Below, one piece after another: positions 24,176-29,780 of a stretch of 64,000 nucleotides of DNA. The position numbers and the translations under genes were made by a program. The stretch is from Microtetraspora niveoalba (GTDB lineage: Bacteria > Actinomycetota > Actinomycetes > Streptosporangiales > Streptosporangiaceae). Numbering within the stretch: the first letter of the stretch is position 1; every line of letters starts with the position of its first letter. The notes below the pieces were generated by a model. It worked only from the letters and a program-made list of their open reading frames with translations. It ran no database searches and was not told the origin of the DNA. The stretch covers positions 50,909 to 114,908 of the forward strand of contig NZ_BBYM01000010.1 in NCBI RefSeq assembly GCF_001570405.1, written 5' to 3'.

Positions 24176-25789
24176 TCAGGACCGGCTCAGGCTCCCGCGA
24201 TACTCCAGCGCGCCCGCGCCCTCCTGGCCCACGAAGTCCAGTGTCAGCGGGTCTTTCAGGGTGAGGGTGATGTCTCCGCCCACGCACTGGTCCCGCTGTA
24301 CGCGGGTCAGGTCGAGCACGTTCCCGGTCCTGACCCGGGTCAGCGTGACCTGCTGCTCGCACCCGCCGGCCCGCCACGTCCCCGTCGACCGGTCAGGCAC
24401 CAGGGTGAGCGTCACGTCGGCGGTCTTCTTCCGATCGTCCTGCGAGACGACCTGACCCGTCCACGTTCCCGCGAACGCCTCCGGGACTCCGCCTCCTGCC
24501 TGGACCGGGGACGGTGTCGAGGGGCTCGCGGAGGCCGGTCGCCCGCCTGAGACCGAACGCGATCCGGAGTCCCCGTCGACGGCACCGGCCTCCGGCCTCG
24601 TCACGTCGTCACCGGATTGGCCGCCGAGCACCCCTGACGCGTACAGCGCCACCCCGGTCACGAGCGCCGCGGCGGTGACGGTGATCGCGATCAGTACGGC
24701 GGGCTTCCGCGCTCGCCGCGGCACCGGCTCGCCGGGCACCGTCTCCTGCGCCGCCGTATCGGAACGGCGGAGATCGCCGACGGTGTCGGGTGCGGCCGCA
24801 CTCCGTGCCCCGGACGAGCCGGGTGAGGGCGGTCCGGTGGGTCCGGGTGAGGGCGGTCCGGTGGGTCCGGGTGAGGGCGGTCCGGTGGGTCCGGGACCGG
24901 CCGCGACCGGGACCCGATCCGTCCGGCCGCTCCAGTCGGCGGGAAGGTGGGCGGTGGGCACCGGGCCGACGTCGGGAACCGTCACGTCGGGGGCTCCGGG
25001 CTCGACCAGGCGGATCATGAGCGCCCGGGCGGAGGGACGTGACGCGGGATCCTTGGCCAGGCAGGCGGCCAGCGTCTCCCTCAGGGGCGACGGAACCTCC
25101 GCGAGGTCGGGCTCGGCGTTGAGGATCCGGCCGAAGACCGCGGCGACGGTGTCGTTGCCGAACGGCGCCCGGCCGGTGGCGGCGTAGTACATGGTCGCGG
25201 CCCAGGAGAACACGTCGGCCGCCGGTGATCCGTACACGCCGTTGAGCTGTTCGGGAGCCATGTACGGCGGGGTGCCGGAGAGCGCCGACGACATCGTGCT
25301 CGCGTCGAGCACCTGGGCGATGCCGAAGTCGACCACGCGTGGGCCGTCCGGGCCGAGCAGCACGTTGGCCGGTTTGAAATCCCGGTGGATGACTCCCGCG
25401 CTGTGGATGGCGGCGAGCGCGTTGGCCGTGGCGACCGCCAGGCGATCGAGGTCGCCCCCGCGCAGCGGACCCTCGTCACGCACCCGATCCCGCAGTGAGG
25501 GCCCCGCGACGAACTCGCTCACGACGTACGGGTCCGGGCGGTCGGTCTCCGCCGCCAGCACCCGGGCCGTGCAGAAGGGAGCCACCCGCAGCGCCGACTG
25601 CAACTCCCTGGCCAAGCGACGGCGTGAGGCGGGGTCGGCGCCGCCGCGCAGGACTTTGATCGCCACCCGCTCGCCGGACCGGCTCCACCCCTCGTAGACG
25701 ATCCCCTGCCCGCCCTCGCCCAGACGCCCGACGATCTCGTACTCGCCCAGTACGCGCGGGTCCCCCGGCTCCAGTGGATCAGCGGGCAT
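24176..25789 (-). CDS. Membrane Ser/Thr protein kinase with a C-terminal extracytoplasmic domain
   Basis: 537 residues. The kinase has GEGGQGIVYEG, the Lys in VAIKVL (about 45), HRDFKPANVLL (Asp about 137), DFG (about 154) and APEQL. A juxtamembrane Pro-rich linker contains three perfect GPTGPPSP repeats. One membrane helix (about 360-382) is followed by a Ser/Pro linker and a beta-rich extracytoplasmic domain (about 440-537, AFAGTWTGQVVSQDDRKKTAD...) with two Cys. There is no PASTA domain, so it senses something other than muropeptides. ATG at 25789 is chosen because GGAGG lies 5 nt upstream, inside an alternative ATG at 25801. Confidence 0.92.
   Translation of the reverse strand: MPADPLEPGDPRVLGEYEIVGRLGEGGQGIVYEGWSRSGERVAIKVLRGGADPASRRRLARELQSALRVAPFCTARVLAAETDRPDPYVVSEFVAGPSLRDRVRDEGPLRGGDLDRLAVATANALAAIHSAGVIHRDFKPANVLLGPDGPRVVDFGIAQVLDASTMSSALSGTPPYMAPEQLNGVYGSPAADVFSWAATMYYAATGRAPFGNDTVAAVFGRILNAEPDLAEVPSPLRETLAACLAKDPASRPSARALMIRLVEPGAPDVTVPDVGPVPTAHLPADWSGRTDRVPVAAGPGPTGPPSPGPTGPPSPGPTGPPSPGSSGARSAAAPDTVGDLRRSDTAAQETVPGEPVPRRARKPAVLIAITVTAAALVTGVALYASGVLGGQSGDDVTRPEAGAVDGDSGSRSVSGGRPASASPSTPSPVQAGGGVPEAFAGTWTGQVVSQDDRKKTADVTLTLVPDRSTGTWRAGGCEQQVTLTRVRTGNVLDLTRVQRDQCVGGDITLTLKDPLTLDFVGQEGAGALEYRGSLSRS
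24821..24892 (-). repeat. Three perfect 24-bp tandem repeats inside the kinase gene
   Basis: Three identical 24-bp units (24821, 24845, 24869) encode the Gly-Pro-Thr-Gly-Pro-Pro-Ser-Pro repeats of the kinase juxtamembrane linker. Perfect DNA identity suggests recent expansion, so copy number may vary between strains. Confidence 0.9.
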
Positions 25790-26054
25790 CGGCTCCTCCA
25801 TGCGCGGTGATCCGTTCACATTAGCGATGCGAGACCCGGCCCACCATGGCCCTCCGTCAAGGCCATGGCGGCGGGCCGCCGAGGAGCGGTTTCTCAGGCG
25901 CGCGCCGCCGCCACGGTGGTCCGCGCGCACGCTCCGGTCTTTTTCCTATGGAGCGACAGGGCGATGGCGAACCGCCGGACGGAGTTCTGTTCCGCCCGGC
26001 GATCGACCCGGCCGGCCGGCTGGTGTCAGGCGCGGCCGACCGGTTCGTCCCCAC

Positions 26055-27098
26055 TCATCGAATGGTGACGCGGTCCCCCTTCGGCGCCTCGACCGGCGAG
26101 TTCTTCACGATGTACGACGCCAACGCCCCCCTGTCGTCCGGCCCGCCGCGGTAGACGGTGGTGGTTCCCTCCCATTTCGGGAAGCCCTCCTGGCCACCCA
26201 TCAGGAGGTAGTTGGCCGCCACCTTGATCACCTGGGTGTCGGTCACCGGAGCACCGTTCAACGTGATCTCGGTCACCGCCCCTCCCTCCACCGTGTAGCG
26301 AAGCGAGGCCGAGGGGGTCAGCACCCAGCCCGAGGGATTCCGGTACGCCAGCAGCTTCTTGAGCTGCGCGCCGGTCATCGCGTTCACGTCAACGGCGAGC
26401 CCGGCCGGCCGGGTGTCCCACAGTTCCTCATAGGTGACCGGACCCGCGTTCAGGTCCGTCCGGAACCCGTACCTGCTGACGAGGGCGACCTCCGCGCCGG
26501 AGAGGGCCTGGACCGAGTCCAGGTAGGCGTCGGCGACCAGTTCCGCCAGCGGGCCACCGGCGGCGGTGAGTCCGATGTTCTCGGTGGTCGCGCCGAACGT
26601 CTCCTCCGCGCCCGGCGAACCGCACTTGAAGTAGTAGAGGGTGTTGGACCTGAGGCCGTTCGGCTGTCTGATCTCGATCTGCACCGAGAACTTGCCCGTC
26701 TCCCAGTCCCATTCCCAGTCGAGCGTTTCCAGCACGGTGGTGAAGACGTCGCCGTGGTCGGCCGGCACGTTGACGGTCTTCCACTCGTCGGTGCCGACGA
26801 GGCGATATTCGACGACCTGCGCGCCGGAGGGAAGCCCCTCGAAGGAGCCATGGACCTTGAAGGTCAACGGACATTTCGACGCGGTGGTCCGCTCGAAGAG
26901 GATGGTCACCTTCCCCACGGGGTTCTGAGCCGGGTCATCCCCCTGACCGGGCGGCGTGTCGACCTCCACGTCCGAGGCGGACACGGCGTTCCACGGTTTC
27001 GCGGCGGCATGCGCCGCCGGGACGAAGGTGCCGGACGCCAGGACGGCAACGGCCGCCAGCTTCCCGAATCGACGCCCAGCCCTACCTGATAGGCCCAC
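26055..27098 (-). CDS. Secreted protein with orphan 5'-nucleotidase C-terminal domain
   Basis: 347 residues. A signal peptide (about 1-33, ending PAAHAA) precedes an N-terminal beta domain of unknown type (about 40-165, two Cys). The rest (about 170-330) follows the 5_nucleotid_C pattern: NIGLTAAGGPLAELVADAYLD, ALVSRYGFRTDL.AGPVTYEELW, NAMTGAQLKKLL and KVAANYLLMGGQEGF. That domain normally binds the nucleotide base next to a metallophosphatase domain, which is absent here. It may bind a nucleotide or sugar without hydrolysis. The GTG start at 27098 follows GAGAGGAA. Confidence 0.75.
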   Translation of the reverse strand: MGLSGRAGRRFGKLAAVAVLASGTFVPAAHAAAKPWNAVSASDVEVDTPPGQGDDPAQNPVGKVTILFERTTASKCPLTFKVHGSFEGLPSGAQVVEYRLVGTDEWKTVNVPADHGDVFTTVLETLDWEWDWETGKFSVQIEIRQPNGLRSNTLYYFKCGSPGAEETFGATTENIGLTAAGGPLAELVADAYLDSVQALSGAEVALVSRYGFRTDLNAGPVTYEELWDTRPAGLAVDVNAMTGAQLKKLLAYRNPSGWVLTPSASLRYTVEGGAVTEITLNGAPVTDTQVIKVAANYLLMGGQEGFPKWEGTTTVYRGGPDDRGALASYIVKNSPVEAPKGDRVTIR

Positions 27099-27436: not shown

Positions 27437-29140
27437 TCAGCCGGCCATGGCGCGGCGGCAGCGGGCCAGTGCCGCGCGCAGGTCGCGTCGCAGCGGCCGG
27501 TCCAGGCCGGGCTGGGCGAGCGCCTCGGTGAAGTCGCGGGCGGCCTCGTCCCACCGCTCCAGGCGCATCAGCGCCGTACCGCGGTTGTAGCGGGGCACCG
27601 GCGCCGCCGACAGCGCCACCGCCCGGTCCAGGTCGGCCACGGCCGCGGCCGCGTCGCCGCGCTCGAACCGGACGGCGGCCCGGTTCGTCCATGCCTCGAC
27701 CAGCTCCGGATCGCCGACCAGCGCGCGGGTGAGCAGCTCGTCGGCTTCGGCGAGGCTGCCGCGCTCCGAACGGATCAGCCCGAGAGTGCACAGCAGCGCG
27801 GGCTCCTCCGGGGCCAGCGCCAGCCCGGCCCGCGCGCCCGCCTCGGCCGCGTCGAGCGCACCGCGCTCCACCTGCAGGTTGACCAGGGCGATCCGGGCGT
27901 CGAGGTGCCCGGGGTCGATGGCGAGCACACGCTCCAGGTCGTCACGCGCCGCTTCCGAGCGGCCACGCTCCTGCTGCAGCACGGCCCGGTTGTAGTACGC
28001 CTCGGGCAGGTGAGGCCCCAGCCGGATGGCCGTGCCGTAGTCCCTGATCGCGGCCTGGGACCGACCCGCCGCCCGGTGCAGGGCGGCCCGGTCCACGTAG
28101 TACTCGCAGTTGCCGGGGTCGTGTGCGATCACGGTGTCGAGATCGGCCAGGGCCTGTGCCTGATCGCCCAGGGCCAGGTGCACCTGCGCCCGGTTGTGGC
28201 GTAGCCGAGCCAGGTCCTGCGGACGCTCGCCGGGAGCGAGCACCGCCGTCAGCCGGGCCAGCCCGTCGTCGACCAGCCGCAGCGCGCGGGCGGGCTCACC
28301 CGCCTTGGAGTCCAGCAGTGCCACGCCCTGCTCGTAGAAGACGGTGGACAACACCCGCTGCCGCGGGTTGTCCAGTCCGGAGGCGAGGTGGATCGCCTGT
28401 TCCAGCCAGTGCCGCGCCTGCGCCTGGTCCTGGTCCTCCGCCGGCAGGTGCCTGGCGTAGAGCATGGCGGTGGTGTACGCGGCCGACATGGTGATCTTGG
28501 GGTCGTCGGTGGCGGCGCGCGCCTCGTTGTAGAGGTCGAGCGCTTCGGCGGCTCTGTCCAGCGCCGCCAGGGCGGTGGCCAGGCCGGTGGTGAACGCCCA
28601 CCAGTGCCGCAGGTCGCCGTCCGGGGTCACCATGGCGCGCCCGCGCCTGGCGACTCGGGCCGCGTGGTGGTAGAAGCCGCGGGCCAGGCTGTCGCCCAGG
28701 GCTGCGCGGATCGCCTCCGGCGCCGGGTCGGCCGCGACCGGCTCGCGGGGGCCGCCGTCGTGCAGATCCAGGCGCACCGGGGACGCCGCGAGCCGGCGGA
28801 TCAGCACGTCCAGCAACTCGCGGGTGGTCTCGTCGGCATCGGCGACGTGGTCGAACCGCACCTTGACCGGCTGCCGGAGCGTGTCCGCCCAGGCCGCCGC
28901 GAACTCCGCCGCGCCGTACGCGAGGCAGGCGGTGCGCCGGGCGGGATGGAACCGGATCGGCTCCTCCTCGGCGGCCGGTCGTGCCGTCTGGTCGAGCCAG
29001 GGTGCGATGGCGTGCAGCTCGACCTCGTGGCGGGACGCCAGGCGGGGGCGGTCGGCGGCGATCCGGCCGAGGAAGTCCGCGATCCCGGCGTACGGCCCGT
29101 GGTCGCGATGGCAGTCGTAGGCGTCCGGCTCTTCGGTCAC
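27437..29140 (-). CDS. TPR protein with a degenerate AAA/STAND-like N-terminal region
   Basis: 567 residues. The first ~170 include HRDHGPYAGIADFLGRI and a segment VKVRFDHVADADETTRELLD then RRLAASPVRLDL. The latter resembles the Walker B region of MalT/LuxR-type ATPases, but no P-loop is visible. The remainder is about ten tetratricopeptide repeats (for example NCEYYVDRAALHRAAGRSQAA and AWTNRAAVRFERGDAAAAV), a protein-binding superhelix. It is cytosolic. It starts with GTG 55 bp after a 27-residue peptide gene on the same strand, so both are probably one transcript, and the TPR domain may handle that peptide. No DNA-binding domain is seen. Confidence 0.8.
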   Translation of the reverse strand: MTEEPDAYDCHRDHGPYAGIADFLGRIAADRPRLASRHEVELHAIAPWLDQTARPAAEEEPIRFHPARRTACLAYGAAEFAAAWADTLRQPVKVRFDHVADADETTRELLDVLIRRLAASPVRLDLHDGGPREPVAADPAPEAIRAALGDSLARGFYHHAARVARRGRAMVTPDGDLRHWWAFTTGLATALAALDRAAEALDLYNEARAATDDPKITMSAAYTTAMLYARHLPAEDQDQAQARHWLEQAIHLASGLDNPRQRVLSTVFYEQGVALLDSKAGEPARALRLVDDGLARLTAVLAPGERPQDLARLRHNRAQVHLALGDQAQALADLDTVIAHDPGNCEYYVDRAALHRAAGRSQAAIRDYGTAIRLGPHLPEAYYNRAVLQQERGRSEAARDDLERVLAIDPGHLDARIALVNLQVERGALDAAEAGARAGLALAPEEPALLCTLGLIRSERGSLAEADELLTRALVGDPELVEAWTNRAAVRFERGDAAAAVADLDRAVALSAAPVPRYNRGTALMRLERWDEAARDFTEALAQPGLDRPLRRDLRAALARCRRAMAG

Positions 29141-29195
29141 GGCCGGGCCGAACGCCGCAGGGGCGGGCGCCCGGGAGCGCCCGCCGTGCCGGCAG

Positions 29196-29279
29196 TTACC
29201 AGCACCACTCGAACCAGAGCCGGCGGGCGCCGGACAGCAGGCGCAGCGTGCTGTTGCGGCGGACGGTCATCTTCTTCAT
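29196..29279 (-). CDS. 27-residue peptide ending WFEWCW, candidate RiPP precursor
   Basis: This small frame has an excellent ribosome site: GGAGGTG on the minus strand at 29283-29289, with the GGAGG core 5 nt from ATG. The product is a basic leader-like half (MKKMTVRRNSTLRLLSGARR) followed by the aromatic tail LWFEWCW and a stop. A short basic leader with a dense Trp/Cys tail recalls precursors of crosslinked aromatic peptides (tryptorubin/atropopeptide type). No P450 or other modifying enzyme is adjacent, only the TPR protein gene 55 bp downstream. Alternatives are a regulatory leader peptide or a signalling peptide. That it is translated is fairly secure; its role is inference. Confidence 0.6.
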   Translation of the reverse strand: MKKMTVRRNSTLRLLSGARRLWFEWCW

Positions 29280-29780
29280 GGACACCTCCGAGTGATCCAC
29301 TTCCGAACTGCCCAGAGCATAATCCGGCCCAGCGAAAATATGTAGATACCTCACGATCAAAGTAATGCGACCAGGTATTGCGCTATATGGGGCCTTCGGC
29401 GGCCTTTGCCCCATTCTGGAAAACGCTTCATTTCGGCCGGCCGAGTCAAGAGGATCGAACCCCGACATCCGGCCCGCCAATCGGCCTGACCTTCAGAAAT
29501 AACGGCCGCAACCTGACCGAAACCCAGACTTCGTACGACCGGAAACACTTTCAGAACCCGCTTCGCGGGCCTCGATGTCTCTCGCGAGAGGCGCTGCCGG
29601 ACAGGATCCGTCCGAGAGAGAAGATCCTCGCGCACCTGTCCCGCAGTCCCGATCCGCTACCTTGACGACGTGTCGGACAGCGAGCGTCATCTGTGCGGCG
29701 GCATCAGGTGGCGAAGGAGATCGACGGCTTCTCAGGGGGACAGCTCAAGACCGGGTCGGGCCGGCGCCGCTGTCGTGTCC
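29280..29780. other. Upstream region of the peptide-TPR operon, otherwise empty
   Basis: The left part holds the peptide gene's ribosome site and a possible -10 box (TATGCT on the minus strand near 29316-29321) in a locally AT-richer stretch. Further right is GC-rich sequence with small frames on both strands but no ribosome site or domain. A CCGCTTCGCGGG hairpin lies near 29558. No other gene is supported. Confidence 0.4.

Follow-up and report, generated by a model that had tools for sequence, protein, structure and literature searches.

The peptide gene, the intergenic hairpin and the TPR gene

The minus strand of the window (the whole 64,000-nucleotide stretch of Microtetraspora niveoalba DNA that was analysed) carries a gene for a 27-residue peptide at 29279..29196, stop included, with an ATG start codon at 29279-29277 and a TAA stop codon at 29198-29196. 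Its translation, MKKMTVRRNSTLRLLSGARRLWFEWCW, ends in the tail WFEWCW and belongs to the conserved type M[KR]KMTVRRxSxLRLLSGARRLW[IFM]EWCW. The Shine-Dalgarno sequence GGAGGTG (29283..29289, minus strand) lies three bases 5' of the ATG and closes a longer upstream block, CTACATATTT..GGATTATGCTCTGGG..GAAGTGGATCAC..GGAGGTG (29283..29345, minus strand). Compared by eye, this block is kept in most of 25 loci, is partial in Catellatospora (L052) and is absent from Hamadaea (L054 and L056); it probably comprises the promoter and 5' UTR. The ORF, its GGAGGTG site and its WFEWCW tail had been described in a sequence-only reading that gave no strand, and proved real on the minus strand.

Fourteen short ORFs (15-50 codons) stand behind a strong Shine-Dalgarno sequence in the window, and one of the 14 has at least three Trp among its final six. 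Sixty first-order Markov sequences with the length and dinucleotide composition of the window contained no such Shine-Dalgarno-preceded ORF, in agreement with the earlier view that the tail is non-random, for which the conservation described below is decisive. The peptide has a pI of 11.8. Its best 10-residue mean hydropathy is 0.49, and none of 56 family peptides reaches 1.6, as a secretion-like stretch would. Pfam and NCBIfam scans gave no model that names the family; apart from one weak Pfam match to a relative, below cut-off, the scanned peptides matched neither collection.

The TPR gene (27437..29140, minus strand) starts 55 nt after the peptide gene with a GTG codon, has no evident Shine-Dalgarno sequence and encodes 567 residues. 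Its AlphaFold2 (AF2) model has a pLDDT of 90.4 and a pTM of 0.84. From about residue 150 to residue 567 (27437..28690, minus strand) the model and its fold match predict a superhelix of helical repeats, for which the nearest fold is the repeat region of O-GlcNAc transferase (OGT TPR, 1w3b, E 7.9e-12); this likeness says something about the fold of the predicted structure, not about function. The N-terminal part, residues about 8-150 (28691..29119, minus strand), appears to be a degenerate AAA_16-like remnant, which we take to be of STAND type, judging by the AF2 secondary structure and by weak AAA_16 matches in the N-terminal parts of three of five homologues (E 1e-4 to 6e-4, short of the curated threshold), all starting only at profile position 72 or 103. 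The window protein itself gave no AAA match, and no DNA-binding domain, helix-turn-helix included, was found in it. At a threshold of 1e-40 the TPR protein was detected in three of 396 genomes of the phylum sample, own included. Separately, L042 and L023 (Nonomuraea pusilla), L031 and L050 have GTGACCGGCCCTGCT-like repeat units in the start region of their TPR genes (six in L023), which multiply the possible start codons.

In the gap between the two genes, a 10-bp GC-rich hairpin (29162..29185, minus strand) begins 10 nt past the peptide stop and is present in all 25 loci. Over 22 distinct rows, 99.5% of the cells are paired, and four pairs show changes in both partners, compared with a mean of 1.2 after shuffling. 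The strong Shine-Dalgarno sequence of the peptide, this hairpin and the lack of an evident Shine-Dalgarno sequence before the TPR gene suggest that the peptide gene would be expressed more strongly than the TPR gene. The simplest reading of this D-type (WxEWCW) hairpin is that of a transcript-level brake, which would hold the peptide above the TPR protein.

Conservation and gene neighbourhood

The WxEWCW peptide was found at 74-100% identity in 15 of 297 family genomes, own included. Matches were accepted at E values up to 0.05, giving 16 genomes, of which one (G021; E 0.02, 53% over 19 residues) was dropped because the fetched locus lacks a WxEWCW tail. Within the genus, three of four genomes, own included, have the peptide. 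The sequence-only reading had made its proposal depend on homologous short ORFs upstream of the TPR gene in other genomes; these were sought by a TPR-alignment scan, and each of the 24 named loci had the peptide immediately before the TPR gene, the two search patterns of the scan reaching close relatives only and some of the loci being in the same genomes as those of the peptide search. Together with the window, these are the 25 loci compared here, from Microtetraspora, Streptosporangium, Nonomuraea, Spongiactinospora, Micromonospora, Catellatospora and Hamadaea.

The tail W[IFM]EWCW is present in every one of the 25, with W22, E24, W25, C26 and W27 invariant and position 23 being I, F or M. 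Likewise M4, R7, R13 and L14 are invariant throughout, and the alignment bears out the basic N-terminal half and distinct C-terminal part noted earlier. Coding constraint, also raised in that reading, is evident from a dN/dS of 0.25 (mean dN 0.091, mean dS 0.361; 298 of 300 pairs), falling to 0.12 over codons 13-27 (286 pairs); the peptide is under purifying selection. On this comparative evidence, the Trp-tailed peptide is a real and strongly conserved gene of some rare actinomycetes.

The TPR gene follows the peptide and the hairpin in 25 of 25 loci, with a spacing of 55-130 nt in the first 15. It is the sole constant neighbour: in 14 relatives compared over about 10 kb per side (less at contig ends), it was the only window gene common to all 14, and three other window genes were each matched in one or two. 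When the 261 ORFs called mechanically in the 25 loci (about 6 kb per side, shorter at contig ends) were clustered all against all, the TPR protein formed the largest cluster, in 23 loci, the other two being TPR loci as well that were lost in the choice of ORFs. The next cluster, transporter-like by eye, occupied scattered positions in six loci, and the remaining ones covered at most three; besides the TPR gene, nothing, and hence no linked modifying gene, recurs in more than six of the 25 neighbourhoods. Motif checks on the same ORFs found the P450 signature in 0 of 261 and CxxxCxxC in one, consistent with the earlier remark that no P450 or radical SAM gene is nearby; neither recurs. As far as these neighbourhoods go, the peptide and TPR genes form an islet of two, set in surroundings that change from locus to locus.

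In the TPR tree of the WxEWCW branch, two Microtetraspora cluster with Nonomuraea pusilla (96/99). This grouping suggests a transfer from one genus to another, although the inner branching is open: 13 of the 22 inner branches are, and with them the order between families. Viral scans gave no relative and phages no match, and a plasmid collection yielded only three records, all below 60% identity, so that neither a phage or viral nor a plasmid origin was retained. Next after the TPR gene, the window has a gene whose product carries a 5'-nucleotidase C-terminal domain, followed by one for a Ser/Thr protein kinase (24176-25930 and 26055-27098, minus strand), which are not kept as neighbours in the relatives.

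Sister peptides with other tails and other neighbours

TPR homologues at 36-39% identity belong to a wider family, with matches in 140 of 297 order-sample genomes, close relatives included. Forty of these loci were picked by hand from the listed TPR matches and read with a peptide pattern written from the peptides of the same loci; in 37 of them the TPR gene is preceded, on its own strand, by a peptide of 23-27 residues. The peptide is close by in 30; in the other seven, all of C type, it begins about 2.2 kb before the matched TPR part, which leaves room for a further gene. No recognisable peptide was seen at the remaining three (L093, L124 and L125). Four types were distinguished, namely A (MKKVVVHKPGTVQLSGQASAKHHA), B (MKRIVVRKPGTARLAGTSSVIHKG), C (MKKIKIRKAGPVRLTAAACSIYKNPN) and D, the WxEWCW peptide, which can be aligned gap-free up to and including residue 23 (22 sequences). 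The N-terminal half is alike across the branches (M-K/R-K-h-x-h-R/H-K..L) and the C-terminal half is branch-specific, ARRLW[IFM]EWCW in the D branch and tails such as SSVIHKG, SPKHVG and CSIYKNPN in its sisters. In a TPR tree of 27 rows across the types, the four peptide types correspond to four supported clades with three changes, the minimum for four groups. Judged by these alignments, the WxEWCW type is one branch of a micropeptide family of probable leader-plus-core build, whose partners are TPR proteins with the degenerate STAND-like N-terminus.

Tryptorubin and the atropopeptides come from short precursors with an aromatic C-terminus and are crosslinked by a P450. The WxEWCW peptide, too, is short with an aromatic C-terminus, and the sequence-only reading had linked it to them; however, the neighbour ORFs lack a P450 signature and the tails that the sister branches carry in place of the aromatic one are not aromatic-rich. 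The proposal of a precursor of a new peptide family stands in part: the peptide is conserved and without a Pfam or NCBIfam name, whereas crosslinking and atropopeptide kinship found no support.

The peptide and its partner are inherited together. Among family genomes listed in both searches, the TPR gene is present in 16 of 16 with the peptide and absent from 20 of 20 without it, each search having scored a limited number of candidates per genome. Copy numbers among the matches listed agree in 13 of the 16 and differ in G061, G047 and G008; the window genome has three peptides and three TPR genes, side by side. A peptide-profile search of the class sample gave matches in 20 of 394 genomes, own included, with up to four peptides per genome among the matches listed. 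At 30 peptide loci that were read, the next gene was TPR-type (GPY or APY motif) in 19, M50-type in seven and neither in four. Two loci (L133, with a lengthened tail, and L149) hold A/B-like peptides without an adjoining TPR or M50 gene; L156 is alike, with the contig ending within 400 bases, and L147 is not convincing as a peptide.

Other GC-rich folds, different in sequence, were seen after A- and C-type peptides (12 loci, -23.5 to -40.9 kcal/mol, computed over 50 nt and without a shuffled control). With the B type, in place of the hairpin spacing, the longest TPR frame begins one base before the peptide stop in seven of eight loci. Several A-type pairs (L075 and L077, also L096 and L106) lie downstream of the end of an SRP54-type GTPase gene, called by Pfam for the L075 piece and by eye for the other three, which we take to be ftsY; this site may be a fixed chromosomal place for A-type pairs. 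NsdA is a TPR regulator near ftsY in Streptomyces. Kinship with it was unsupported, the matches being partial, within the repeat part, in four of six genomes of one genus, presumed to be Streptomyces.

Downstream of the C-type peptides is a gene for a membrane protein that bears an HExxH motif (M50-like), the gene order being peptide, M50, TPR in G413, with an M50-like gene between peptide and TPR also in G138. Of two such proteins, one has a weak Pfam match to M50 (E 0.066, short of the cut-off), and the single lasso PqqD match from NCBIfam was weak too (E 0.067). The M50-like model is of middling quality (pLDDT 75.4, pTM 0.60, 5 rows). Its N-terminal bbbaaa domain nevertheless has RREs at the first eight PDB ranks (lasso B1, TbiB1 with leader, McbB), at E 0.13 and weaker and probabilities of 0.98-1.00, with PqqD and ThcOx ranking lower. 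This RRE-like fold was found beside sister peptides, not at the WxEWCW locus. At L186, the leader MKKIVVRKPGTVRLT is joined to a Cys-rich tail beside an M50-type gene; together with the C-type loci, this indicates that the leader half is common to TPR-paired and RRE-M50-paired peptides. The L185 and L146 peptides end in CWPF and CWPV.

Further peptides were noted in such settings. L186, L185, L188 and L195 have leader-like peptides with Cys-rich or other tails, e.g. MKKIVVRKPGTVRLTAMACYCYGCCCCGGRAAI and MKKLVVRKLEPIKTSANADCVPAAA, before RRE-M50-like genes, and look like an unexplored RiPP-like assemblage. Short peptides with IxIRxLDxIETT precede M50-type genes in L193, L197, L191 and L199, with a DUF6879 gene in between in L193. 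At L187, the M50-type gene comes after a ThiF-family gene, and no peptide was found there.

Possible functions of the peptide-TPR pair

The reading that we favour, to which we give about an even chance, is that the peptide and the TPR protein are a ligand-receptor pair, acting in an RRNPP-like manner with a separate make-up. The N-terminal half of the peptide would be a leader and the C-terminal half a branch-specific tail; the tail, free or released from the leader, would be bound in the groove of the TPR superhelix, and this binding would switch the TPR protein. Since the peptides have no secretion-like stretch, intracellular action, or export by some other route, must be assumed. The invariant tail, the TPR linkage, the fit to the tree, the co-inheritance, the superhelix model and the covariation of the hairpin count for this reading; the missing secretion stretch and DNA-binding domain, the lone peptides at L133 and L149, the peptide-free TPR loci and the copy-number mismatches count against it.

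The RRNPP systems of Bacillota (Rap-Phr, Rgg-SHP, PlcR-PapR) likewise have a small propeptide gene directly beside a TPR gene, co-inherited with it, and the informative part is probably C-terminal in both. PMC10075063 gives five criteria, namely a propeptide of 10-100 aa, a receptor length of 250-500 aa, TPRs in the receptor, a gene spacing of -60 to 400 bp and a Sec signal, or PptAB-type export for SHP/PrgQ. The WxEWCW-TPR pair has a 27-residue propeptide, a TPR-bearing receptor and adjacent genes (55 nt); it lacks a Sec signal by hydropathy, and its receptor, at 567 aa, is outside the range. With three of the five features present and two not, the pair is not filed as RRNPP; it may still work alike. 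It further differs in belonging to Actinomycetota, in having no helix-turn-helix that was found, and in its degenerate STAND-like receptor N-terminus and conserved leader half. An AAA_16-like N-terminal remnant with a TPR superhelix is shared with the STAND-derived TPR proteins of actinomycetes, from which the present system differs in its accompanying branch-specific micropeptide.

Alternatively, the peptide may be a RiPP precursor, with a leader and a cleaved, perhaps modified core, enzymes encoded elsewhere, the TPR protein as carrier, scaffold or immunity factor and an exported product; we regard this as possible, if rather unlikely. The leader-like N-terminus and variable C-terminus resemble RiPP precursors that work with a PqqD/RRE protein (lasso B1, PqqD), and the gene just downstream of sister peptides with a similar leader encodes an M50-like membrane protein fused to an RRE-like domain, which points to maturation over plain ligand action. 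The Cys-rich core behind the L186 leader, the CWPF and CWPV tails and the hairpin after the peptide gene fit as well. However, no RRE, protease, transporter or tailoring gene, nor any other modifying gene, recurs in more than six of the 25 WxEWCW loci, where the partner is the TPR protein; no neighbour ORF has a P450 signature, and the RRE match is weak by E-value. Moreover, most antibiotic cores vary, unlike this tail, which is almost invariant across two orders.

Near its end the peptide gene has codons for three Trp and one Cys, and a conserved hairpin stands just past the stop. Translation of this tail, or ribosome stalling on it, could decide the state of the hairpin and through it the expression of the TPR gene, with no function left for the peptide. 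The 5' arm of the hairpin can indeed pair alternatively with peptide codons 16-21 (mean duplex -24.25), but this pairing shows no covariation (partner-shuffled mean -24.47, 172 of 200 shuffles as low). Conservation extends well beyond the Trp and Cys codons, to M4, R7, R13 and L14 and to an N-terminal half that is alike across branches. The A- and B-type sequences shown have no Trp or Cys, the C type has no Trp (a C26-like Cys aside), and in the C branch (G138, G413) the M50-like gene intervenes before the TPR gene. Because of the sister peptides, the N-terminal conservation and the lack of covariation, we consider such an amino-acid attenuator improbable. Most doubtful is a toxin-antitoxin or defence islet in which a basic, Trp-tailed, membrane-active peptide is neutralised by the TPR protein: the high pI, the spread of a patchy two-gene islet through changing contexts and the signs of transfer would suit it, but three proteins scanned with PADLOC (TPR proteins, including one M50-like) gave no match, no viral or phage match was obtained, and relatives are widespread in the family, some beside the ftsY-like gene in what looks like a housekeeping-type place.

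Neither the peptide sequence strings nor, by title or abstract start, a description of a peptide-TPR family was found in open-licence literature, and PMC12710340 and PMC5431353 had no hit for the terms searched. A micropeptide family with this leader and these tails is thus apparently undescribed so far. Signals in Actinomycetota are typically small molecules, and peptide-TPR pairs are known from Bacillota, according to PMC10075063. Returning to the ligand-receptor reading, a broader and more tentative possibility, which we think somewhat doubtful, is that actinomycetes sense peptides by way of RiPP-type leader peptides, some of them RRE-M50-processed, whose branch-specific tails, WxEWCW among them, would be read by dedicated STAND-derived TPR receptors, with several parallel channels in each genome. 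The leader sequence can be used to mine unannotated precursors, some beside RRE-M50-like proteins, and each peptide-TPR pair is directly testable, consisting of two small genes with the partner already identified. If true, a field of peptide signalling, or of new RiPPs, would open in antibiotic producers.
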